From positions 1 to 25,625 of IMG/VR virus record IMGVR_UViG_3300025131_000374: a stretch of 25,625 nt of DNA; one strand, written 5' to 3'. This stretch comes from a virus. This document shows positions 6,578-24,197 of the stretch, piece by piece. The position numbers and the translations under genes were made by a program. The notes below the pieces were generated by a model that saw only the letters and a program-made list of their open reading frames with translations, was not told the origin of the DNA and searched no databases. Each line of letters begins with the position of its first letter. Position 1 is the stretch's first letter.

Positions 6578-9500
6578 ATGGCTAAAGTTACAATACCAAT
6601 TCCTAAAGAAAGCCCATTAAAAAATATAGTTAAACTTCCAGAGGATGAAAATGTTATGGGTGCTGGAGGAACAGGAGTCGGAGATCAGGGAATATACGGA
6701 CAAGAGATTAAAAGAGCGTTACGAAAAAAACCTACTGGAATCATTTCTCTTACTCCAAAAGAAAAAAGACTGATTCCTCAATTTCCAAGAAAATATAAGG
6801 GAATCACGTCTGGAAGAGACAAAGATTTGCAAAAATCTCTTGGCTATGGAGAAGGACCTTTTGCAAGACAAGAAAAAAGATTAAAAAATATTGAAGAAGA
6901 ACAAAAGGAAAAAGAAAGATTAATGGGAGCTTTGGCTCCAGAACCAGCAGACCCAACTCCAGACTCTGCTAATGTTGCTCTTCTAAAAGGACAAAAAGCC
7001 GATTTAGAAGATGTAGATAGAAGTGTAGGAGGATATTTGTCATATCCATTTTCTAAAGAAGGTGGGTCTTCGCCTAAAAAACTAATAAGTGGATTTTGGA
7101 CTTACAATCCAAACCTTTCATTTACTACTAGAGCATTTTTAGGTGGTATCAATAAAGAAGGAAGAATAGAAGAAGGAAAAGGAAAAGTAAATGATCCAAA
7201 AGAATTTTACGAGTTTACGGTTCAAGTTCCTTGGTCTACTAAACCTTCCGTTTGGCATCTCAATGTACCTCCCACTGAAAAAATTAGAAACCAATTAATT
7301 CAACAGGCAAAAGATGAATACTGGAATCAAAGTCCAGCAAAGCAAACAGAAGATTTTTTAATATGGGCCAAAAACAATATAAGAAACGCTATTAAACACG
7401 CTACGGGAGGAGAGTTTTGGAACGAATTTGCTTTTGAATCTTTGGTTGGTATGCAAGTTGGAGCAATAAACTACAATTACTTAAATAAAAAGATGTCTCC
7501 TACTTATTCAAGGTTAAGTGGATTGTCGAAAAAAGGAGGTCAACTAAGAAGTCCCATTCGTGCAGGTTCTGGCAGAGGATTTATTCCTCTTATGCAAATG
7601 GCTGTCGCAATGTTTGCAGATTGGTCTTCGGAATTTGCTTTGCAACAGACAGGTGTTTTTCCTAAAGATAGTTTGTCTTTGTGGATGATACCATTTATGC
7701 CAATTGCATTTGGGGTCGCAGGAAAGGTATACAGGGGTGGAAAAGCAGCACTGGCACACGGTCCATTAAGTTCATTGGCAAAACAAAACAGAGCACAAAG
7801 GACTGCTGTAAAGTGGCTTAGCCAATTCGCTGAGTCGGCAAGTAATAAGGTATTGAAAAGTAGAAGAATGAGAGCGCTTTTGGGACTGGACACAAGGATA
7901 GTAAACTCAAAAATAATGTACGAGAGGTTGGAGACTCTATATCCAAACTTCGAGTTACCAACAGAGATGTTTAATAATTACAATAAAGCCTTAGACAAAG
8001 TATTGGCTGATGCGTCATCGTACATAAAAGTAGGAAACGTAGACGCAGTAGCATTAGCGGAGCGAGCAAAATTGTTTAAAGAATTACTGAAAAATGAAGT
8101 TGTTACTTATAAAGATATTACAGCTTTATCTTCTGAAATAGGACACTATATTAGAAAAATAGGAAATGATACTGCAAAAGAAGCGGCAGAAAAAGGAATG
8201 TTTGGAAAAGCATTTAATGGTGCTGAAAGTGGAAGAGTATTATTCAATAGTTTAACTGATGATTTAGATGGCTTTATATTTAAACATGGTCGTGGTAGTT
8301 CAGGGAAAAAACAATTTTATCCAGATACTTTATCAAGAAGGAGGTTAGACAGGAAAGGTGATCAAAACCAACCTCTTGGTATTGAATGGATAAAAGCAAA
8401 AAGAGCAGAATTTAGAGAAAAAGGATTGAAAATTCCAGAGAAAGGTCAACTGCTTCATGAAGAACTATATAAGAGAAAGGTCAAACGCTTCATGTCTGAG
8501 TTTAAGCTTTTAAAAAGAGATGAGGTTCAAAACTTATATAATATACGAACTCGTGGAAATCTAACTCCCCTACAGAAAAAGCAACTTGCAAATTATGAAT
8601 ATGGAAGAAAAATGGCTTCTGCTCGAACAACACAAGACACTGCCCGTGTTCTTAACCGTTTTAAAAAAGCGAGACAAATGGCTAACGCAGAATATGTTGC
8701 TGCGGACTGGAATGATGTTTTAGATGCCGCAGGATTAACAAATGCTGCTTGGATGAAAGGTGTGCGTCTTGCCAGAAGTCCGAAAGAACAAGTTTTAGGT
8801 CAAGTGGATGAAATAGATTTTGGAAAAGTAATAAAAGGTTTTAGGGAGAGGGCATTTGATCCAGATGGAAAAATAAGTAGCGTATGGAAATCGGTCATAC
8901 CAGAAAAAGACATAAGAAGGTTAAATAAATTTTTAGGTTGGATGGAGACCCAAGCTGGAAAAGGAGGGTTCGGACCCGGCGGCTTGGTTATTCGTGGGAG
9001 ATCAGCAAACATAGCGGATAGAGTTATGAGTGCCATGTTAGGTGGAAGTTTAGCGAACAGTGCGTTGGGTGCTATCCCAACAGCAGCTGCGGCTACTGCG
9101 GCAGCACAACTGCCAGAAATTCTACAAAGATGGACTACAAAGTCTAGGTTAGGTGCTGCTTTCTTAGAAAATATTTTACGAAGATCAAAAATGTCTAAAG
9201 TACAACAAGTTCAAATGGCTCATATGATGGTAAGTGTGATACGTTCAGAAAATAAAGATGGCGTAAACACAGGTGAAACAAATAGTAGTCTTAGGGAATT
9301 TATAGAAAAAGATGTCCCCCTGTTCCTTTCTTATATAAACAAATCAAGAGAAGACCTTTTTGAATATGCTAAAATGCAAATAATGCCTACAGGAGGAAAA
9401 ATAGATTTAGGAGTCATTCAAAAACATAAAATAATGGGGACTTTTGACACAGAGAAAGAAAAAACGATTCAAAATTACATGGATATGACAGGAGCAGATA

Positions 9501-11955: not shown

Positions 11956-12292
11956 TCTCTATCTCCTTTGGATCAATTTGAATTACAAATATTGCTAAAC
12001 CAGAATCGTCTAACATCAACGCAAGACCATCATCACTGAGAGCCTTGCGTATTGGTACTGGTATTGCCTTACATCTCTTAACCTGAAATGCGAAGGACTT
12101 TCCACTATCTAGAACCAAGTCTCCGCCAAACTGGTCTCCAGATCGTTTGTGTATATTCCAACATCTTTTTCCTTTAAACATATTTAGAAGAAAGGATTGG
12201 AAAATTCGATTTCCTTCCGAACCCCTTCTCCTGTTAGACCGAGCAATAGAGGCTTTACTTCTCGAATTCAAACTGTGTTTCCGTTGTACCAT
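11933..12292 (-). CDS. PD-(D/E)xK-like nuclease (Holliday-junction resolvase / VRR-Nuc type)
   Basis: The 119-residue protein has a basic N-terminus (NRRRGSEGNRIFQSFL, with E26). KRSGDQFGGDLVLDSGKSFAFQVKRC follows as two halves, giving D58 and Q70-V-K72. An acidic residue in the first helix, then D, then [E/Q]-x-K on a strand is the metal-binding core of PD-(D/E)xK nucleases. The QxK form is known from VRR-Nuc and some resolvases. The size suits a phage resolvase acting late in replication or recombination. The ATG at 12292 (GAGG and GGAG upstream) is preferred to an in-frame TTG at 12307. Function is inferred from the motif pattern only. Confidence 0.6.
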   Translation of the reverse strand: MVQRKHSLNSRSKASIARSNRRRGSEGNRIFQSFLLNMFKGKRCWNIHKRSGDQFGGDLVLDSGKSFAFQVKRCKAIPVPIRKALSDDGLALMLDDSGLAIFVIQIDPKEIESGRNKSS

Positions 12293-12494
12293 ATCTCCAT
12301 TCCTCAAAATCCGACTGATAAATTCTTATGTGTCCTCTCCTCCCGTTCCCTAAATCTGCTCTGTGTACTCTTCTAAAAACACCTGCTTTGACCATCTCTC
12401 TCACTGTATGAGTAGAGTACCCCATTATAGTTGCGATATCATTTACAGTCAACATACGTTCTATTCCATCGTCATGTTCTGCCTTTGTTTCCAT
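12255..12494 (-). CDS. Small helix-turn-helix DNA-binding protein (excisionase/MerR-like)
   Basis: The 79-residue protein carries LTVNDIATIMGYSTHTVREMV (given here in two halves: LTVNDIATIMGY and STHTVREMV), the standard HTH_17/excisionase winged-helix start, followed by a basic wing (GRRGHIRIYQ) and the common ending SDFEEW. Such proteins bind short DNA sites as architectural factors or repressors. It overlaps its upstream helicase gene by 23 bases and its downstream nuclease gene by 38. It is the only obvious site-specific regulator in the window, so it is a candidate binder of the repeat array and palindromes at 20.6-21.0 kb; that link is inference. Confidence 0.8.
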   Translation of the reverse strand: METKAEHDDGIERMLTVNDIATIMGYSTHTVREMVKAGVFRRVHRADLGNGRRGHIRIYQSDFEEWRYGTTETQFEFEK

Positions 12495-13764: not shown

Positions 13765-13978
13765 TTAAATCTTCCTCCTTTAAATTAAGGGAAGACAAGA
13801 TATCCTCAGTAGTGCAACCTGACCTACATTTAACTACGACTCTTCCACTGACATTGGATTCAAACCAGTAAAGAGAGGGATTCTTGTCATTATGACTTGG
13901 GCAAAGTCCTCTCCACCAACTACCATTGGGAGAAGACCTTGCCTTTTTTATGTAACTACTAAACTCTTCACAATTCAC
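13646..13978 (-). CDS. Primase zinc-finger protein (CHC2-like), overlapping the helicase gene
   Basis: The 110-residue protein has a zinc-ribbon: C26-x2-H29 in GLCPSHNDKNPSL and later CRSGCTTEDIL, the arrangement of CHC2-type primase zinc fingers that read the primer start site. It ends in a basic tail rich in Arg, Lys and Ser (from SSRKNSRHKNKKRYR). That tail is read in a different frame over the first 119 bases of the Toprim-helicase gene. The GTG start overlaps the stop of the sugar dehydrogenase gene (GTGA). In most phages this finger is fused to the Toprim domain; here the two are separate proteins from overlapping frames. Confidence 0.8.
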   Translation of the reverse strand: MNCEEFSSYIKKARSSPNGSWWRGLCPSHNDKNPSLYWFESNVSGRVVVKCRSGCTTEDILSSLNLKEEDLSGVRVQRSSRKNSRHKNKKRYRQGKDFLLEKAIKKSDSL

Positions 13979-15372
13979 AGTGAAAACACCTTCCTCTTAC
14001 TATCGTCGTCAGGGTGATAAAACTTTATTTTTTTTGGATAAGTGTTACAGCAATCGACTATCGCATTTGCTTCCACAAATAGTTCTGTATAGTAGTGTTG
14101 ATATTTAGAATTTGGAAGACAATGGAACTTATCTATTGTTTCTACTGAAAATGGAAATGGCTGACAGATAACCACACAGTCTGACTTCTTCACTGCGTCC
14201 ATGCCAAACTCTACGCTACTTACCTGTCTATCTTTAGAGAGCCACATCTTAGGAATAAGAGGGTCGTAGTATTCGACGTTTGCCTTCTTCTCCTCTAGTA
14301 TTTTCCAAATATCACGACAAGCACTCTCTCTACTGTCTGCAACCTCTGGTTTATAGGAAGCACCCAATAATAAAATGTTAGAACCCGCAATTTCTTTAGA
14401 TTGCGTGATTTCTAAAGATTTCCCAATCAATCCTGTTATGTGGTAAGGAACAGAATTATGTATTGCCAACGCCTTCTCTACCAGACCTAGAGTGAACCCA
14501 TTTTTTCTTGCACCAAAAGCTAAAGCGGTAGCATCTATGCCTATGCAATGGCCACCGATTCCAGCACTTGGTCTGAATGCGTGGTATCCAAAAGGTTTTG
14601 TCTCCGCTCCCTGACATATCTCCCAAATATCTAAACCAACTTCAGAAACATACTGAGACAACTCTTGTATTAACCCTATCCCAACCATTCTAAAACTGTT
14701 CTCTAGAAGTTTAATTGCTTCCGCACACTCTACCGAACTGACAGGAACTGCCTTCGTTATCTTGGTATAGAGTGTCTCGGTCAACTTCTTACAGTTCTCT
14801 GTAATACCAGATGTTATCTTTGGTACATCATGAATAGTGTATTCTTTATTGTTAGGGTCAACTCTCTCTGGTGAACAACCAACAAATACATCCACCCCCA
14901 CCTCTAATGGAGTTTCCACTTCCCCTTTTTTATCTAGGGATTGTTTCTTTAGTTTCTTTGCAATTTTTCCCCTAGTTACCCCAATAGGTACAGTAGACTC
15001 TAGTATAATCAACTTCCCTTTCAGAGAGGGGAGTCCCTTCAACGTCTTTAACACTTCTTCAATCGAAGACATATCAGGTACCCCTCGCTTACTCAAAGGT
15101 GTTGGTACACAGATGATAACTACATCTGCATTTCTTATGTGTGATGGGTCGTCGTTCACTTCAAATCTCAGTAATTGATATTCAGGTTTCGACATCATAT
15201 CCCTGAGTTTCGCAATTCGTTTGGAACTTAATTCATACCCCGTTACCTCATACTCCTGTTGTGAAAATGCAGATGCAATACTTGCACCTACAAATCCACA
15301 ACCTATTACGGATATCTTTGCAGACTTATCTTTAATCTTTTCTAATAAACTAGAATGGTATATCATCTTCAT
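13975..15372 (-). CDS. UDP-glucose/GDP-mannose dehydrogenase family enzyme (likely UDP-HexNAc dehydrogenase)
   Basis: The 465-residue enzyme is complete for the family. It has an NAD-binding GCGFVG (24-29), VPTPL (89-93), ESTVPIG (125-131), SPERVDPN (167-174), the conserved lysine in AEAIKLLENSFR (K221) and the catalytic cysteine in GIGGHCIGID (C276). The C-terminal sugar-binding domain has LLLGASYKPEVADSRES. These enzymes oxidise C6 of a UDP-sugar in two steps to a uronic acid. The GGHC context and length recall the WbpA/TviB group that uses UDP-GlcNAc or similar, but the substrate is not certain. It overlaps the annealing-protein gene by 23 bases and the primase gene by four, so it is an integral part of a replication operon, an unusual place for a sugar enzyme. 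Confidence 0.88.
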   Translation of the reverse strand: MKMIYHSSLLEKIKDKSAKISVIGCGFVGASIASAFSQQEYEVTGYELSSKRIAKLRDMMSKPEYQLLRFEVNDDPSHIRNADVVIICVPTPLSKRGVPDMSSIEEVLKTLKGLPSLKGKLIILESTVPIGVTRGKIAKKLKKQSLDKKGEVETPLEVGVDVFVGCSPERVDPNNKEYTIHDVPKITSGITENCKKLTETLYTKITKAVPVSSVECAEAIKLLENSFRMVGIGLIQELSQYVSEVGLDIWEICQGAETKPFGYHAFRPSAGIGGHCIGIDATALAFGARKNGFTLGLVEKALAIHNSVPYHITGLIGKSLEITQSKEIAGSNILLLGASYKPEVADSRESACRDIWKILEEKKANVEYYDPLIPKMWLSKDRQVSSVEFGMDAVKKSDCVVICQPFPFSVETIDKFHCLPNSKYQHYYTELFVEANAIVDCCNTYPKKIKFYHPDDDSKRKVFSL

Positions 15373-17415: not shown

Positions 17416-17676
17416 TTATTCCTCCTCCTCTAATAACTCTTTTACGGATTCAGTACCTGTAATCTGCCGAAGCTGACTGGTACAAGTTCCAGTAAATTTA
17501 TATTTTCTATCCTCCAACTTCAGCTTTAACTGATACTTCTTAAGCTCAAGTGGTTCAAGTTTCTTTTTCTTATTACGTAATTGTACTGACAATCTGTTGT
17601 ACTTTTCTAGTTCTCTAAGAAATCCTCTTAAGTTTTTCTTAAGTGGGATTCCATTTACTTCCTTTGGAATTTGCAT
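17416..17676 (-). CDS. Hypothetical 86-aa Lys/Glu-rich protein
   Basis: The ATG overlaps the stop of the DUF3846 gene (TAATG), so translation is coupled, with AAGGA further upstream. The protein is a long amphipathic helix (LRGFLRELEKYNRLSVQL and onwards, very rich in Lys and Leu). A short, more structured end follows (FTGTCTSQLRQITGTESV) and then an acidic tail EEEE. No membrane segment or known motif is seen. Confidence 0.55.
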   Translation of the reverse strand: MQIPKEVNGIPLKKNLRGFLRELEKYNRLSVQLRNKKKKLEPLELKKYQLKLKLEDRKYKFTGTCTSQLRQITGTESVKELLEEEE

Positions 17677-17966
17677 TATTTAAAATATCCTTCCTTCACT
17701 ATAATCACATCTCCTACAATGAAATCATCAGTAATAAAATTATTTCGATATAGTTTAGTTGCTTCTTCGTTTATTGGTTTTTCTTTCAACTTACCTTCCT
17801 CATCAAATACCAAAGTATCTCCATTCTCTAGCGTTGCTATTTCTATCAAACCTCCTACCAATTCTTGCATTTCTTCTAGTTCTATATCTCTTTTTATAAT
17901 ATGTATCTTTGAATTTCGCATTCCTTCATTTTTCAGTTTTGCATTTCGCATTTTTTCATTTTTCAT
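17676..17966 (-). CDS. DUF3846-like protein with repeat-derived N-terminus
   Basis: Residues ~38-90 match the DUF3846 pattern: GGLIEIATLENGDTLVFDEE, GKLKEKPINEEATKLY and DFIVGDVIIV. This small domain is frequent in phages and plasmids and of unknown function. The first 20 residues (MKNEK, MRNAKLKNEG, MRNSK) come from a 30-bp repeat that also occurs inside the gene at 18126-18941. A GGAG lies ten bases before the first ATG; ATG 17921 would give a protein without most of the repeat, but its AAGGA is too close to the start. It overlaps the upstream 31-aa gene by 11 bases. Confidence 0.75.
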   Translation of the reverse strand: MKNEKMRNAKLKNEGMRNSKIHIIKRDIELEEMQELVGGLIEIATLENGDTLVFDEEGKLKEKPINEEATKLYRNNFITDDFIVGDVIIVKEGYFK

Positions 17967-18095: not shown

Positions 18096-18129
18096 ATCAA
18101 TCGTTAAAAATAGTATCTTTTCTTTTTAT
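18096..18129. repeat. Inverted repeat 1, 3' arm
   Basis: On the minus strand this segment runs from the stop codon of the Cys-rich gene into the gap. It pairs with 18988-19019. Perfect core: AAAAATAGTATC on the plus strand (minus GATACTATTTTT). Flanking blocks ATAAAA/GAAA pair with two single-base bulges, and ATCAA pairs at the outer end. Confidence 0.75.
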
Positions 18130-18941
18130 CCTGCCATTTTTAAAAGGTTATTTTTTCCTGCTCCATGAACTTCTATTGCTATACTCTTTCCGTTTTTCCT
18201 TCCGTCGCATAGTCCACATTGGTTACATTGCACTTTCGGGAATGGGCAAAGAATTTCATTTTTTGTGATCTGTTCGTTTTCTCTTAATACTCGGAATGTT
18301 CGTTTTTTGTTTTGCCATGCTTGATCCGCTTGCCCTAGTGAGTTAGCGGAGACCATCAAAAAATCATGTATTGAAGCGTTTTTTTCTGGGTACTGATTTG
18401 TGTAACCCGTCAAAGCTCTTTTTTTCTTTTCATCCAACTTATTTTGAAAAGAATCTAAAACATGAAAAGGAACAGTTCCACTATCTCCATACGATCCATG
18501 CCTCTGACCTCGATCGTCAAAACTGGGATCGTCGTTGATCCTCTTTGCTAATTCTACGGGATCAATCTTTGGATAGTTTCTCTTTTTAAACGATCTGAAA
18601 ACCTGCAAAACAGATTGATAAATTGAAACATAACAGACACGATCTTTCGCTGTTTTTGCGTTCGGATCGTCGTTGATCTCGCCTGTTAACTTGCACGATC
18701 CGCATTGAAGATCGAGACCGTTTTTATTTGCGAGCATGGGATCAAGGTTCTTATTCAATATAAAAGTTTGCATCATATTTCCAGTTTTGCGATTTTTTGA
18801 CGGGGTTAAAATTTGAATAACTACAATCTCATCTTTTAAGTTTCGCATTCCTTCATTTTTCAGTTTCGCATTGTTATATTTAGAAGTTGTGAAACATGGT
18901 TTTCCGTCGTATATCACGAACCCGCTTTCTTTAATTCTCAT
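18126..18941 (-). CDS. Conserved phage Cys-cluster protein of unknown function
   Basis: The 271-residue protein begins after GGAGG nine bases upstream. Its body matches a pattern I associate with a widespread phage family of unknown function: a start like NRKTGNMMQTFIL, then QCGSCKLTG, RVCYVSIYQSVLQVFRSFKK and NYP, then SANSLGQADQAW and a C-terminal CPFPKVQCNQCGLCDG followed by IEVHGAGKNN. The two Cys clusters suggest a metal site (zinc or iron-sulfur). Residues ~23-36 (NNAKLKNEGMRNLK) are an in-frame insertion from the 30-bp repeat. The gene is enclosed by its own inverted repeat and lies in the GATC-rich block. It is the third gene from the presumed leftward promoters. Confidence 0.72.
   Translation of the reverse strand: MRIKESGFVIYDGKPCFTTSKYNNAKLKNEGMRNLKDEIVVIQILTPSKNRKTGNMMQTFILNKNLDPMLANKNGLDLQCGSCKLTGEINDDPNAKTAKDRVCYVSIYQSVLQVFRSFKKRNYPKIDPVELAKRINDDPSFDDRGQRHGSYGDSGTVPFHVLDSFQNKLDEKKKRALTGYTNQYPEKNASIHDFLMVSANSLGQADQAWQNKKRTFRVLRENEQITKNEILCPFPKVQCNQCGLCDGRKNGKSIAIEVHGAGKNNLLKMAG
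18841..18872. repeat. Third copy of the 30-bp repeat, inside a coding gene
   Basis: This copy differs from 17914-17945 at one of 32 bases. It sits in frame in the Cys-cluster gene and encodes NAKLKNEGMRN, as in the DUF3846 protein. Confidence 0.85.
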
Positions 18942-18963
18942 TTTTAAAACCTCCAGTTTTTAA
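18939..18963 (-). promoter_or_regulatory. Ribosome-site leader, copy 1
   Basis: On the minus strand AAAACTGGAGGTTTTAAAAA leads into the ATG. The same 22 bases (counting ATG) precede the gene at 19059-19736. TTAAAA/TTTTAA can form a weak A-U stem with the SD in its loop. Confidence 0.6.
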
Positions 18964-18987
18964 GATTTTTAAAAAAAACAATTTTGA

Positions 18988-19019
18988 ATAAAAGAAAGAT
19001 ACTATTTTTTTTTGTTGAT
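18988..19019. repeat. Inverted repeat 1, 5' arm
   Basis: This lies 46 bases before the ATG at 18941 and pairs with 18096-18129 across the whole gene. Its outer end overlaps repeat arm 2 (19013-19042) by seven bases. Confidence 0.75.
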
Positions 19020-19042
19020 CGCTCGTGTTGTCTGCATCCTCC
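19013..19042. repeat. Inverted repeat 2, 3' arm
   Basis: On the minus strand this arm starts 16 bases after the stop codon at 19059. It pairs with 19756-19784: GGAGGATGCA (10 of 10), ACA, CA, and AGCGATCAACA (11 of 11), with one bulge and three mismatches between them. Confidence 0.88.
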
Positions 19043-19058
19043 GAGAAAAAAGAAAAAA

Positions 19059-19736
19059 TTAACTATCTAAGATTGATCCGTTCAGTTCCTTTTCTGTCTC
19101 TTCGAGCTTGTCTTGTGTTGCCATCAAATCAAGCTCCAAACCTTTGATCTGATCTTTGAACTGGTCGATCTCTTTCGTTTTATTAATTAGAACTTGTTCA
19201 CGGCCTCGCATAATTCCCTGAAGATAATTTCTAACATCTTTTTTTGTTTTCCCGACGAACTCGATCATGATCTTATCTTTCGAGTAACTTTGGAAAAAAT
19301 CCTCAGAATGAAAAGAATTAATACCTTGATAAAAATCCTCCGTTCTCTTGATTTGATTCTCAAAATTTTTAGCAATCAAGACGAAACCCGTTTGGTCTTT
19401 AACTTCTTGATAATCAAATTCTCCGATACTATCAAATATTCGATCTCGTGATCTTTGGGTTTCTTTAGTTATGAATCTGAAGTGAGTATCGTTTTTTTGT
19501 ATGTATGTATTTTTTAAATTGAAACATTGAAAATATAATTCGCCGTCTAGCTGACTCGCATCGATTAGACGTTCTGTTTTTGGTGAGATCATCAATTCAT
19601 TTTTAACAATCGCATTGCATTTAGAAATAAATTGTTTCAGATAATTATGGGTAACGTTCTTACCTAAGAAGTTGAAGTGTATACTTTGTAAAAGTGTGGA
19701 GAACATACTTTGGAAAAATAAAGATACTTGTTTCAT
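19059..19736 (-). CDS. Hypothetical 225-aa protein with C-terminal coiled coil
   Basis: ATG 19736 is chosen because GGAGG lies nine bases before it in a leader shared with the gene downstream; the frame is open 12 codons further, but that part would run through the ribosome site. The N-terminus (MKQVSLFFQSMFSTLLQSI) is hydrophobic and could be amphipathic. The middle is mixed (DGELYFQCFNLKNTYIQ; FRFITKETQRSRDRIFDSIG). From about residue 155 the chain is a coiled coil (KTKEIDQFKDQIKGLELDL; TQDKLEETEKEL). No family is recognised. It is enclosed by inverted repeat 2 and rich in GATC sites. Confidence 0.65.
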   Translation of the reverse strand: MKQVSLFFQSMFSTLLQSIHFNFLGKNVTHNYLKQFISKCNAIVKNELMISPKTERLIDASQLDGELYFQCFNLKNTYIQKNDTHFRFITKETQRSRDRIFDSIGEFDYQEVKDQTGFVLIAKNFENQIKRTEDFYQGINSFHSEDFFQSYSKDKIMIEFVGKTKKDVRNYLQGIMRGREQVLINKTKEIDQFKDQIKGLELDLMATQDKLEETEKELNGSILDS

Positions 19737-19744
19737 TTTTAAAA

Positions 19745-19760
19745 CCTCCAGTTTTGGAGG
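19745..19760 (-). promoter_or_regulatory. Hairpin that covers the ribosome site of the 225-aa gene
   Basis: In the mRNA, CCTCCA-AAAC-TGGAGG forms a 6-bp stem whose 3' side is the SD of the gene at 19059-19736. Its 5' side (CCTCC) is the edge of inverted-repeat arm 19756-19784, so pairing of that arm with the distal arm at 19013-19042 would compete with this hairpin and free the SD. Confidence 0.6.
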
Positions 19761-19784
19761 ATGCAAACACAACAGCGATCAACA
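19756..19784. repeat. Inverted repeat 2, 5' arm
   Basis: This lies 19 bases before the ATG at 19736 and pairs with 19013-19042 across the gene. The next inverted-repeat arm (19788-19815) begins three bases away. Confidence 0.88.
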
Positions 19785-19787
19785 ACC

Positions 19788-19815
19788 CTGTCAGTCTGTA
19801 ACGTAACCCAGTTCC
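19788..19815. repeat. Inverted repeat 3, 3' arm
   Basis: On the minus strand this arm starts 11 bases after the stop at 19827. It matches the inverse of 20344-20371 at 23 of 28 positions, with two perfect blocks: TGTCAGTCT and ACCCAGTTC. Confidence 0.8.
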
Positions 19816-19826
19816 ATGAAAGAAAA

Positions 19827-20324
19827 CTACTGAGTTAAAACTTTTTTGACTCTATCATTTTCTAGCGTTCTCACTTCTAGAATATCTTCAAAATACTTTT
19901 TTCCGTCTTCTATTCTTTCCTTTAGTTCGTCAATGTACATGAGTTCCAGAACGCTGTAGTCTTCGCCTTTCTCTTTAATCCATGCAACCTCCGCAAAGCA
20001 ATCAATCGCCATCCCTTCCGCTTTTTTTCCGTAGTTGAATTCTTCAAAATAGCGACCATGAAAAGTCCGCATGTGCCATGGGAACTCGTCGTGTGGTGAT
20101 CCGTCTTTATTGGTGTGCGTCGCTAAGTTCCACACAACGTATTCAAGCTGGTCGCCAACCATACATAACACAAGAAGATGCTCCAGTGTAAATCTTAAAC
20201 CCGTTATAGTTTCCTCTGTTTCTGGGTCGACAAAATCATCAAGGATGCGATCCTCGTATATGAATGAATCAATGACAAATCTTTTTGTTGTGCTTTGATA
20301 TTGATATCCAGTTGGTTGTATCAT
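19827..20324 (-). CDS. Hypothetical 165-aa protein, first gene of the leftward operon
   Basis: The ATG at 20324 has GGAG nine bases upstream. The protein starts MIQPTGYQYQSTTKRFVIDS and is acidic, with an aromatic-rich centre (VVWNLATHTNKDGSPHDEF, PWHMRTFHGRYFEEFNYG), a block rich in Ala, Cys and Ile (AIDCFAEVAWIKEKG) and a helical end. His, Asp and Glu residues are frequent, but I cannot define a catalytic motif. No family is recognised. It follows two promoter-like sites and a 150-base leader, so it should be among the first genes expressed; an anti-host role would be a guess. Confidence 0.65.
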   Translation of the reverse strand: MIQPTGYQYQSTTKRFVIDSFIYEDRILDDFVDPETEETITGLRFTLEHLLVLCMVGDQLEYVVWNLATHTNKDGSPHDEFPWHMRTFHGRYFEEFNYGKKAEGMAIDCFAEVAWIKEKGEDYSVLELMYIDELKERIEDGKKYFEDILEVRTLENDRVKKVLTQ

Positions 20325-20334
20325 TTTATGATCT

Positions 20335-20351
20335 CCAGTTTTGAGAACTGG
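20335..20351 (-). promoter_or_regulatory. Hairpin next to the ribosome site of the 165-aa gene
   Basis: In the mRNA, CCAGTT-CTCAA-AACTGG forms a 6-bp stem whose 3' side includes the first two bases of the SD (GGAG). Its 5' side belongs to inverted-repeat arm 20344-20371, so pairing with the distal arm would disrupt it, as in the next gene. Confidence 0.5.
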
Positions 20352-20371
20352 GTCACTTTATAGACTGACAA
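20344..20371. repeat. Inverted repeat 3, 5' arm
   Basis: This lies 20 bases before the ATG at 20324 and pairs with 19788-19815 across the gene. Confidence 0.8.
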
Positions 20372-20497
20372 GATTTTTTCGAATGTAAAAGAACGGTTAC
20401 TTTCAATTAAGAAACTCAATCAATTTTGAACATGGTCTTTAATTGGTTAATCCAAGATCGCTATCACCTAAAAAAACCTTACAAAAAACCATACCTA

Positions 20498-20525
20498 ATA
20501 CTACCATACTGATAGATAGGGTCAA
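20498..20525 (-). promoter_or_regulatory. Leftward promoter-like site proximal to the operon
   Basis: On the minus strand TTGACC (20525-20520, five of six) is 16 bp from TAGTAT (20503-20498, four of six). A transcript from here would have a leader of about 165 bases before the ATG at 20324, containing an inverted repeat and repeat arm 3. Confidence 0.45.
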
Positions 20526-20661: not shown

Positions 20662-20765
20662 AATGCGATCCTTTAATAGAGGCGATCTGAGATGTCGTTT
20701 TTTCCAACGTACTATCACATTGGAGCGTGTCCGATCTCTTAACAGGCGGCTCCTATGCAGTTTCC

Positions 20766-20904
20766 ACAACATATAGTATGATCTGATAACACATGCACTA
20801 TATATGGTACTACTACATATAGTATGCTCCTATAAAATATGCACTACATATTGTGCTACTACATATTGTGCTTTCGCATTATCGCAACCACTACATATGG
20901 TATG
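20766..20904. repeat. Six-copy short repeat array with alternating spacing
   Basis: Six copies of a 14-15 base motif, consensus ACTACATAT-N-GT(A/G)(T/C)(G), start at 20766, 20797, 20812, 20843, 20858 and 20890. The steps are 31, 15, 31, 15 and 32 bases, so the array has a 46-base super-period with two motifs per period. The motif is a partial palindrome (ACTACATATAGT against ACTATATGTAGT). The spacers differ. This looks like a binding array for a replication initiator, repressor or segregation protein. Confidence 0.8.
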
Positions 20905-20919
20905 ATCATCTCGCATGAG

Positions 20920-21370: not shown

Positions 21371-21604
21371 ATGAAAACTAGAATCCATGTCAATCAACAC
21401 GTTATAAAAAGGAATACAAAAACAGGTGAAAGAAAACCAGTATTAACCTGTAAAACGTACAAGGGTAATAACTACGCACATGAAGCGGTGATACTTGGAC
21501 CGAGCAAGGTAATATACCGTCCCGACAAACCGCTATCCTGCGGTGCGAGGGTTTGGATAGAAACGACATCGGAGGTAATCGTTGATGCAAAAAGAACTGT
21601 TTGA
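21371..21604 (+). CDS. Conserved small phage protein of unknown function
   Basis: The ATG at 21371, with GAAGGG four bases before it, is preferred over the ATG at 21353, which has only a weak site. The 77-residue product begins MKTRIHVNQHVIKRNTKTGE and contains NNYAHEAVILGPSKVIYRP and PLSCGARVWIETTSEV. This beta-rich pattern (IHVNQH near the start; PLSCGARVWIET near the end) recurs in many phages and has no known role as far as I know. It overlaps the glycosyltransferase gene by 20 bases, so the two are probably co-translated. It is the first gene after the structured leader. Confidence 0.72.
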   Translation: MKTRIHVNQHVIKRNTKTGERKPVLTCKTYKGNNYAHEAVILGPSKVIYRPDKPLSCGARVWIETTSEVIVDAKRTV

Positions 21605-22745
21605 TCAAGGTTTGAATAAAACAGAGAAATTTAACGAAGACCACTGGAAGGGAATGCCTGAATATTACAATATAGTGGAACCAGAACCAGAAATCACAGC
21701 TACTTTTAAGTTTCGGAATGAAAAAGATTATGAACATTTCAAGGAAACAGTAAAAAAGCACTTATACGACGGAGAAAAGTGTTTTGATGGTATGCAAAGA
21801 AAGGGAAAATATCAGGCTTGGTATCCTTTGAAAGAAAAAGCGAGTAAATATAGGTATTACGACGAAAATTCTGCTAAAAATCCAATATTTTCGATTTACA
21901 TTGTGAGCAAGGGAAGATGGGAACGGAATCCGACAAGGGAATGTTTGGAAGAAATGAAAATTCCTTACAGAATGATAGTGGAAGAGTCACAATATGACGA
22001 TTATGCAAAATATATGGACAAAGAAAACCTGTTAATCCTGCCTGAAAAGTATAAAAAGGAATACGACACCTTTTGGAAAGACGAAGACAAGAGAACAGGG
22101 CCCGGCCCTGCTAGGAACTTTGCATGGGACCACTCCATTTCTGAGGGCCACGATTGGCACTGGGTAATGGATGACAATATTGAATCTTTTGAAAGGTTAA
22201 ATAAGAACAGAAAAGTGAAATGTACCAGTGGAACGATATTTTATGTATGTGAACAGTATGTTCTTCGATATACGAATATAGGACAGGCTGGATTGAACTA
22301 CACTATCTTCTGCCCTTCTTCTGATTCCAGACCTGTTGTTAAATTTAACACCAGAATATACAGTTGTCTTCTTATCAGAAACGATATTCCTTTTCGGTGG
22401 AGAGGAAGGTACAACGAAGATACCGATTTATCCCTGAGAATTATGAAAAGCGGTATGTGTACTGTTCAGTTCAACGCTTTCTTACAATCGAAAAGAGCAA
22501 CACAAACTATGCGTGGAGGGAATAGTGAGGAGTTTTACGATAAAGAAGGAACAAAGAACAAAAGTCAGATGTTAGTAGATATGCATCCAGATGTATCAAA
22601 GATGTCCTATAAGTTTAATAGATGGCATCATCATGTAAACTACAAATCTTTTGAAGTAAACAAACTGAAATTAAGAGAAGATATACACATACAGGAAGAA
22701 GCGAATGAGTATGGAATGATATTAAGGGAGAGAGATGACGAGTAA
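21585..22745 (+). CDS. TET-associated-type glycosyltransferase (predicted DNA-base glycosyltransferase)
   Basis: The start is ATG 21585 with GGAGG nine bases upstream. Residues ~1-100 form an N-terminal domain ending near KYQAWYPLKEKA. From ~102 the catalytic domain shows the TAGT pattern: SIYIVSKGRW, a GPGPARNFAWDH turn (172-183), the acidic HWVMDDNIESF (192-202), EQYVLRYTNIGQAG, NTRIYSCLLI, RWRGRYNEDTDLSLRIMKSG (271-290), FNAFL, a GGN loop and RWHHHVNY. Families of this type were found beside TET/JBP dioxygenases in phages and are predicted, and in some cases shown, to put sugars on 5-hydroxymethylated pyrimidines. No TET-like gene is in this window; the hydroxylated base could be made by a gene outside it. 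The neighbours (methylase, sugar enzymes, MazG-like) support a DNA-modification role. Confidence 0.83.
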   Translation: MQKELFDQGLNKTEKFNEDHWKGMPEYYNIVEPEPEITATFKFRNEKDYEHFKETVKKHLYDGEKCFDGMQRKGKYQAWYPLKEKASKYRYYDENSAKNPIFSIYIVSKGRWERNPTRECLEEMKIPYRMIVEESQYDDYAKYMDKENLLILPEKYKKEYDTFWKDEDKRTGPGPARNFAWDHSISEGHDWHWVMDDNIESFERLNKNRKVKCTSGTIFYVCEQYVLRYTNIGQAGLNYTIFCPSSDSRPVVKFNTRIYSCLLIRNDIPFRWRGRYNEDTDLSLRIMKSGMCTVQFNAFLQSKRATQTMRGGNSEEFYDKEGTKNKSQMLVDMHPDVSKMSYKFNRWHHHVNYKSFEVNKLKLREDIHIQEEANEYGMILRERDDE

Positions 22746-23223
22746 AGAATGGATAACGCCAGATATATTTTTTAAAAGGTGTTCGGTAGCGTTTGGTAAG
22801 TTTGATTTAGACGTAGCGTCAGATGAGAATAATGCAAAATGCGACCTGTACCTGACAGAGAAAGAGAACGCTTTGTCAATCAACTGGTCTAAATACCTAT
22901 CTGATAGAGAAATATATACTAAACATATTTGGTGTAACCCCCCTTACCATAAATTAATCTCTTGGGTATCGAAATCCATAGAGGAAGCAGAGAGAGGTTG
23001 CACTGTAGTGATGTTATTACCTTGGGGTAGATGGGCTAAGTGGCACGAATTGATAGTCAGACACGCAGAAATGGTGAGGGTAGTGGGAAGGATACAGTTT
23101 GAATTAGATGGCAATACTCCAAGTAATGCTCCCTCTTGCAATATATTAGCAATAATGAGACCTAAGATAGAAGGATTCCGCTTTCCTACAGGGTTTACTA
23201 ATTCGGAGATAGACGCAAAATGA
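22735..23223 (+). CDS. Phage Dam-type DNA N6-adenine methyltransferase
   Basis: The 162-residue protein matches the phage Dam family (DNA N-6-adenine-methyltransferase): EWITPDIFFKRC at the start, FDLDVASDENNAKCDLYLT, then HIWCNPPYHKLISWV with the catalytic NPPY (68-71), and VVMLLPWGRWAKWHE and GRIQFELDGNTPS. NPPY is motif IV of amino-methyltransferases. Specificity cannot be read from the sequence; members of the family are usually taken to act on GATC. The gene overlaps the glycosyltransferase by 11 bases and the epimerase by four (ATGA), so the three are co-translated. GATC sites are strikingly frequent at 18.1-21.2 kb. Confidence 0.87.
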   Translation: MTSKEWITPDIFFKRCSVAFGKFDLDVASDENNAKCDLYLTEKENALSINWSKYLSDREIYTKHIWCNPPYHKLISWVSKSIEEAERGCTVVMLLPWGRWAKWHELIVRHAEMVRVVGRIQFELDGNTPSNAPSCNILAIMRPKIEGFRFPTGFTNSEIDAK

Positions 23224-24197
23224 GTAATTATCTAGTTACAGGTGCATTTGGTTTCATTGGATCACACTTTGTAAATAAAATGTTGAACGAAAATCATAAA
23301 ATTATTGGGATCGACTCCATGTCCACGGATTCCGATTTCTCTCTCAAACAGGAACGCCTTCACTTTTTAAATGCCTCTAGATATTTGGAATATAGAAGTA
23401 AAATACAAAAGTTTATATTTGTAGGACTAGACCTGTCGTATTCTAGTTGTATAGAAAAACTTGGGCAATTAAACGAAGAAACAAAAATAGATGCAGTCAT
23501 CCATCTAGCAGGTAGTGCAGGAGTGAGGCGTTCCAACGAGGAACCAGAAAAGTACATTCGTAATAATGTGATGTCTACAGTGAATTGTTTAGAATTTTGC
23601 CGAAAATTTTCAGTCCCTAAATTTGTATTAGCCTCCACTTCCAGTATATATAGCGGTTCAAAGATGGTTCCCTTCATGGAACATGACCAGATAGGTGAAA
23701 TGTTGTCGGTATATGCCGAATCAAAGAAGATGGCGGAAGAGGTTTGCTCCGTATATCACCGATTTCATGGGATTGATGTCTCTATATTGCGTTTCTTCAC
23801 TGTCTATGGAGAAAAAGGCAGACCTGATATGAGTATTAGTAAGTTTATGGAATGTATCAGTAACAACAAAGAACTGGTAATGTACGGAGATGGATCGCAA
23901 TCAAGGGATTATACCCATGTACAGGATATATGTGAGGGAATACAGAAGTCTTTGATATCCGTAGGCTGTGAAATATTTAATTTAGGTAGAGATGAACCAG
24001 TCAGTGTCAGGGAAATTATAGAGAAACTGGAGAATATTATAGGGAAGAAGGCAAATATACGATCTGAACCTAGACATTCTTCGGATATAGACTGTACCAA
24101 TGCCGATATATCAAAGGCAAAACGTATATTAGACTGGGAACCGAAGATATCCATTGACGATGGGTTGAAAAGAGTATGGGAATATTATGGAAGATAG
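23220..24197 (+). CDS. NAD-dependent UDP-sugar epimerase/dehydratase
   Basis: The 325-residue protein is a short-chain-type sugar epimerase. It has GAFGFIGSH (8-16) for NAD, HLAGSAGVRRSNEEPE (95-110), STSSIY (139-144) with the catalytic Ser region, YAESK (165-169), FTVYGEKGRPDMSISKF and GDGSQSRDYTHVQD. The GRPDM and AGVR..E.P signatures resemble UDP-glucuronate 4-epimerases, although UDP-glucose 4-epimerases and dehydratases are close relatives. It may act on the product of the sugar dehydrogenase at 13975-15372 to make the donor for the glycosyltransferase. That pathway is inference from co-occurrence. Confidence 0.87.
   Translation: MSNYLVTGAFGFIGSHFVNKMLNENHKIIGIDSMSTDSDFSLKQERLHFLNASRYLEYRSKIQKFIFVGLDLSYSSCIEKLGQLNEETKIDAVIHLAGSAGVRRSNEEPEKYIRNNVMSTVNCLEFCRKFSVPKFVLASTSSIYSGSKMVPFMEHDQIGEMLSVYAESKKMAEEVCSVYHRFHGIDVSILRFFTVYGEKGRPDMSISKFMECISNNKELVMYGDGSQSRDYTHVQDICEGIQKSLISVGCEIFNLGRDEPVSVREIIEKLENIIGKKANIRSEPRHSSDIDCTNADISKAKRILDWEPKISIDDGLKRVWEYYGR

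Follow-up and report, generated by a model that had tools for sequence, protein, structure and literature searches.

Co-evolving inverted repeats enclose each of three consecutive genes in the operon of an uncultivated virus

Genes and repeat arms at the locus

The window analysed here, a 25.6-kb contig of an uncultivated virus (IMG/VR record IMGVR_UViG_3300025131_000374), contains three consecutive minus-strand genes, each of which is enclosed by its own imperfect inverted repeat, with one arm before the start codon and the other at or after the stop codon. The genes are the first of a leftward operon and are listed below in the order of the messenger RNA (mRNA), which runs from 20378 to 18106, together with their arms. 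All three genes recur, with order and orientation unchanged, in a relative, L006 (IMGVR_UViG_3300009481_000745), which serves for comparison throughout; genes 2 and 1 are about 87% identical between the two.

20345..20378, minus strand: 5' arm of pair 3, ending 21 nucleotides (nt) before the gene 3 start codon
20324-19827, minus strand: gene 3, 165 amino acids (aa), function unassigned, 58% aa identity to L006
19781..19814, minus strand: 3' arm of pair 3, beginning 13 nt after the gene 3 stop codon
19756..19785, minus strand: 5' arm of pair 2, ending 20 nt before the gene 2 start codon
19736-19059, minus strand: gene 2, 225 aa, function unassigned, 76% aa identity to L006
19012..19042, minus strand: 3' arm of pair 2, beginning 17 nt after the gene 2 stop codon
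18990..19009, minus strand: 5' arm of pair 1 (AAAAATAGTATC...), ending 49 nt before the gene 1 start codon
18941-18126, minus strand: gene 1, 271 aa, relative of PHROG 2554 (function unassigned) with cysteine pairs, 94% protein identity to L006
18106..18126, minus strand: 3' arm of pair 1 (...GATACTATTTTT), beginning at the gene 1 stop codon, with its core 9 nt after the stop

The stems are 20-34 columns long, with mismatches or bulges inside, and the core of pair 1 consists of 18998-19009 and 18106-18117. On the mRNA strand, sequence upstream of each start codon pairs with sequence downstream of the stop codon of the same gene. The Shine-Dalgarno (SD) sequences begin at -13 or -12. The helices reach only to -21 (pair 3), -20 (pair 2) and -49 (pair 1) and so stay upstream of the SD, unlike the arms of icaR and type I toxin messages, which lie across it. 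Expressed as the end of the helix before the start codon and its beginning after the stop codon, the geometry is -21/+13 for pair 3 and -20/+17 for pair 2, and the values for the same pairs in L006 are -18/+16 and -20/+17. A ribosome covers the message to about -20 at initiation and to about +10 past the stop codon; the arms of pairs 2 and 3, and those of the unrelated genome G001 described below, lie just beyond this footprint at both ends. The original prediction placed the arms correctly to about ten bases, and was also right that arms of neighbouring genes abut or overlap.

Pairing beyond chance and compensatory change

Local complementarity was scored between the 90 nt before each start codon and the 80 nt after each stop codon, and compared with 5000 dinucleotide shuffles. 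The scores obtained were 29.0 for gene 3, 27.5 for gene 2 and 18.5 for gene 1, which were reached by 0/5000, 0/5000 and 20/5000 shuffles, respectively. The corresponding RNAduplex z values are -4.6, -6.2 and -3.8, and none of the window's 28 other genes goes below -2.7. Among 2448 gene-spaced placements on both strands, the top scores fall mainly at pairs 1-3 and the best outside the region is 18.0; the proposed search for equally good repeats between random points of the genome therefore does not refute the observation of an imperfect inverted repeat around each of three adjacent genes. In fact, the shuffles, the z values and the covariation described below all bear it out, and the repeats enclosing the three genes are confirmed as real. 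Chance complementarity in AT-rich flanks could draw on pair 1, which a few shuffles match when it is taken alone, but has been refuted where pairs 2 and 3 are concerned, since no shuffle matches them, and the occurrence at three adjacent genes together with the covariation reduces its probability to a negligible level.

Comparison with L006 supports actual pairing, since both arms have changed together between the two phages, as a real structure would be expected to do. In the alignment, AAAAATAGTATC/GATACTATTTTT of pair 1 is replaced in L006 by AAAAATAGTGTC/GACACTATTTTT; pair 2 has TA added in both arms (2 base pairs, bp), with GCAT-CCTCC/GGAGG-ATGC becoming GCGTTACCTCC/GGAGGTAATGC; and in pair 3 a U-A pair is replaced by C-G within CAGTC(T/C)/(A/G)GACTG. 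There are two Watson-Crick double changes between the window and L006, a count that is by itself less decisive, being reached in 4% of trials with randomly placed substitutions. Over 77 gap-free columns with 14 substitutions, however, only 1 pair has been lost, whereas random placement of the substitutions onto these bases costs a mean of 6.4 pairs, and a loss of no more than one was seen in 0/20,000 trials. Pair 3 has stayed complementary although the gene 3 protein that it encloses has drifted to 58% identity.

In a repeat that acts as DNA, a G-U pair on one strand corresponds to A-C on the other, and the two are expected at equal frequencies. The one-sided changes, read on the sense strand, comprise four from Watson-Crick to G-U, two from G-U to Watson-Crick and none from Watson-Crick to A-C; sense RNA is favoured over DNA because these changes go through G-U and never to A-C. 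In the window and L006 alike, pairs 2 and 3 also form a sense duplex that is 5-12 kcal/mol stronger than the antisense duplex; for pair 1 the two are equal. These results bear on the alternative that the genes are DNA-level cassettes, in which the arms would be terminal inverted repeats used for moving, inverting or exchanging genes, or would be kept alike by template switching. The layout of a gene plus its repeats and the abutting of neighbouring arms would suit such cassettes, and homogenisation could mimic compensatory change, but one-sided changes go to G-U and not A-C, the retained G-U pairs speak against homogenisation, and gene order and orientation are identical in L006. Moreover, the genes do not share the same terminal repeats, and one enzyme could not use all three pairs because these are unrelated in sequence. 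No transposase or integrase was found in PHROG scans of 30 open reading frames (ORFs) of the window, in which a single weak DNA-binding or excisionase-like match occurred (12255-12494). A cassette is accordingly very improbable, and of the functions first suggested for the repeats, the mRNA domains are well supported whereas the DNA cassettes are disfavoured, in view of the unrelated pairs, the lack of a called recombinase, the G-U bias and the retained gene order.

The sequences of the three pairs are unrelated, as had been noted from the outset, and arms of different genes pair poorly: a 5' arm and its own 3' arm give -17 to -45 kcal/mol, compared with -2.7 to -15.5 kcal/mol for combinations with the arms of other genes. 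Because the arm sequences differ between genes, each helix would join only its own gene; identical arms would join the wrong genes, which would account for the lack of relatedness among the pairs. When the whole 2432-nt segment is folded by partition function with no constraint, all three helices are predicted to form simultaneously, with mean pair probabilities of 0.89 (gene 3), 0.87 (gene 2) and 0.81 (gene 1) in the window and, in the same order, of 0.91, 0.98 and 0.76 in L006. The chain of stems with one gene in each loop that was originally envisaged is thus backed by covariation, simultaneous folding, G-U bias and orthogonal arms, as well as by recurrence elsewhere.

Recurrence in other phages and surroundings of the operon

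A screen of 196 loci (2.8 Mb of viral DNA and about 12,000 ORFs, spurious ones included) was carried out with a gap-limited complementarity score and a same-contig background; ranking by RNAduplex misleads across contigs of mixed GC content. Scores of at least 24 were observed 12 times, against 1 in the background of mismatched gene ends, although these counts are not unbiased frequencies because the loci were chosen by motif and homology. Once self-palindromic repeats are removed, the clear cases are the family of the window and two further genomes, G001 and G044.

G001, C1 at about 144-145 kb (= L036 10400-11900), start of a leftward run: stem-enclosed genes unrelated to those of the window
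G044 (L092), 7550-8065, minus strand: gene of 120 aa in a 29-bp perfect inverted repeat, the 3' arm abutting the next ribosome binding site (RBS)

In G001 (IMGVR_UViG_3300026320_000001, 147.7 kb), it is again three consecutive small genes (A, B and C) that each have their own stem, with geometries of -18/+11, -19/+10 (if gene B starts at its second in-frame ATG) and -15/+11. The three stems differ in sequence but all contain a 2x2 CC/AA internal loop, which lies 11-13 bp in from the end nearest the gene and is a candidate site for protein recognition or processing. Another high score, in L051, belongs to a 57-aa ORF with arms 50-77 nt away.

The high scores of L064, L065 and L025, which we take to be Felix O1-type phages with the same SD motif, were rejected as a different thing, namely one repeated local hairpin in successive intergenic gaps. 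This long hairpin (AAAGTGCTTTACATGGGGTTTA...TAAGCCCCAGATAAAGAGCTTT) precedes one small gene after another at 5485-6985 of L064, is present also in L065 and L025, and resembles a repeated element of the promoter, terminator or processing kind. No gene-enclosing stem of comparable quality turned up in T7, in lambda or in the part of T4 scanned, its first 50 kb. The loci of 69 distant relatives of gene 1 (424 kb) likewise yielded no convincing non-palindromic enclosing stem, the best being GC-rich low-grade matches; the stems were therefore rejected as a trait of the gene 1 family, and the design belongs to the operon instead.

Upstream of the leftward operon there is one further feature of the transcript:

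20498..20525, minus strand: candidate sigma-70 promoter, TTGACC-16-TAGTAT with TG, a consensus match only

The aligned site in L006, TTGACA-16-TAGAAT, is closer to consensus than that of the window, and a consensus scan for promoters finds fewer sites in the window than in shuffles. Genes 2 and 3 matched no PHROG or Pfam family; no homologues of either were found in named phages, nor of gene 2 in GTDB genomes, and the window has no DNA relatives among the phages and plasmids searched. An Rfam covariance-model scan of the window gave 0 matches at the gathering threshold, and a tRNA scan was empty.

Within gene 1, 42 nt (KLKNEGMRNLK; 18831-18872) recur with 93% identity at 17905-17945, close to where the gene at 17676-17966 begins. 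Between the divergent operons, at 20764-20907, there are repeats with 46-nt spacing, of the ACTACATATAGTATG and ACTACATATTGTGCT types, which may be iterons or operators. The region 21582-24197 encodes a TET-associated glycosyltransferase (Pfam TAGT), a DNA methyltransferase-like protein and a nucleotide-sugar epimerase, and a UDP-glucose dehydrogenase is encoded at 13975-15372; this gene set suggests that the phage DNA is glycosylated and hypermodified.

Gene closure in the message and its relation to known systems

The explanation favoured here, with a probability of about 0.6, is that helices in the sense mRNA close off the genes one by one as separate, protected units of translation, and that RNase III may cut these helices. 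Genes 3, 2 and 1, at the head of the operon, would each have a long-range helix of their own, in which a 5' arm upstream of the SD pairs with an arm just past the gene's own stop codon, and the message would become a chain of loops with one gene per loop. Such a helix could persist during translation because, for pairs 2 and 3 and for G001, it stops just short of the ribosome footprint, and would be meant to survive translation rather than to block it. Closure of this kind would insulate the RBS from neighbouring structure and from coupling, and would hold the ends of the gene together, shielded against nucleases; RNase III-type cutting within the stems could free monocistronic messages. The helices, their strand, co-evolution, orthogonality and recurrence rest on sequence and computation, whereas closure during translation, RBS insulation, stability and processing are inferred; stability, RNase III cutting and translation control would each be a possible function, and sequence by itself does not decide among them.

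Several observations weigh against this explanation. Pair 1 departs from the footprint geometry, its 5' arm ending at -49 and its 3' arm lying at the stop codon itself, and is weak taken alone (p ~0.004), though it carries a clean A-U to G-C double change. In G001, gene C has a predicted P = 0 in whole-segment folding and the gene A duplex is stronger on the antisense strand, and close relatives of this genome for a covariation comparison were looked for and none found. The compensatory changes come from one informative relative, L006, the other relative, L005, being 99.8% identical. Finally, co-transcriptional folding may differ from folding at equilibrium.

The stems might alternatively be no more than RNase III processing signals, long double-stranded RNA (dsRNA) that the host enzyme cuts to give monocistronic mRNAs, much as it cuts the pre-16S and pre-23S rRNA stems, with no role for closure during translation. 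Near-continuous dsRNA of at least about 20 bp is present in these helices, internal mismatches or bulges included, neighbouring stems abut, and the internal loop common to the G001 stems recalls the T7 site R1.1, which also contains an internal loop (PMC6121014). The RNase III sites of T7 early mRNA are likewise intergenic dsRNA of a phage with internal loops, but they are local hairpins; such hairpins would be enough for RNase III, and pairing across a whole gene would therefore be needless. The three stems of the window, moreover, have no internal-loop motif in common, and processing as the sole function appears rather unlikely.

Another alternative is a switch that restricts translation to complete transcripts, the 5' arm hiding the SD until the later-made 3' arm frees it. 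The CCTCC of the pair 2 5' arm could indeed pair alternatively with the gene 2 SD; this CCTCCA/TGGAGG hairpin is kept in L006, where the probability of the SD being unpaired is 0.00, a value matched by 0.3% of upstream shuffles, and gene 3 and the G001 genes allow comparable anti-SD stretches to be drawn. Significance is not reached, however, by gene 3, gene 1, gene C of G001 or the window's own gene 2 (shuffle fraction 0.24-0.53), and SD accessibility gains little in any of the three window genes when the arm is occupied. Local sequestering of the SD as a property of all genes was rejected, being unsupported against upstream shuffles except for L006 gene 2; the switch is therefore a minor and improbable rival.

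If closure is extended to the other cases, some phages might build polycistronic mRNAs as orthogonal closed loops whose helices lie outside the ribosome footprint, pseudo-circular units that would have evolved more than once, in phages and around genes that share no relationship, a generalisation that is put forward only tentatively.

In the precursor of 16S and 23S rRNA, each unit of a joint transcript lies in the loop of its own long processing helix. The phage layout also places one unit in each helix loop, but around protein-coding rather than non-coding sequence, and whereas processing is established for the rRNA stems it is only presumed for the phage. Among mRNAs, the Bacillus subtilis hbs message pairs its 5' and 3' untranslated regions (UTRs) over 14 nt, which protects it from RNase Y (Braun 2017, reviewed in PMC7821165), and intramolecular 5'UTR-3'UTR pairing is also described for RNAIII (PMC7821165). 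The hbs message and the phage both pair arms before and after one gene, but hbs is a single cellular gene with a 14-nt pairing, compared with helices of 20-34 nt and distinct sequence at three consecutive operon genes. In Staphylococcus aureus icaR mRNA, pairing of the 3'UTR with the 5' leader is repressive and brings in RNase III, which cuts the double strand (PMC3868564); the 3' arm of icaR covers the SD, whereas the phage helices stay upstream of it, at least 20 nt away from the start codon. The hok and AapA type I toxin mRNAs are closed by a long-distance 5'-3' interaction that keeps them inert, with the SD masked, until 3' trimming (PMC6733600). They share with the phage the closure of a coding part over a long distance, the phage genes being larger, members of an operon, and with the SD outside the helix. 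E. coli operons contain ORF-wide units of mRNA structure (PMC5318159), again one separate unit per ORF, although the phage helices are discrete and confined to the gene flanks.

Given hbs, icaR, RNAIII and AapA/hok, the original statement that there is no described equivalent was slightly too strong. A tandem layout of one helix per gene in a polycistronic phage message was not found described in a search limited to open-licence papers, so that an earlier description may exist. The phage case differs from the known 5'UTR-3'UTR pairings in the tandem occurrence, in phage operons, of one orthogonal helix per gene with the SD outside it. End-to-end pairing of a message, known for a handful of single bacterial genes, here becomes a design element repeated along an operon, and if closure works during translation, it would constitute a bacterial analogue of the closed-loop mRNA and a means to uncouple genes within one transcript.

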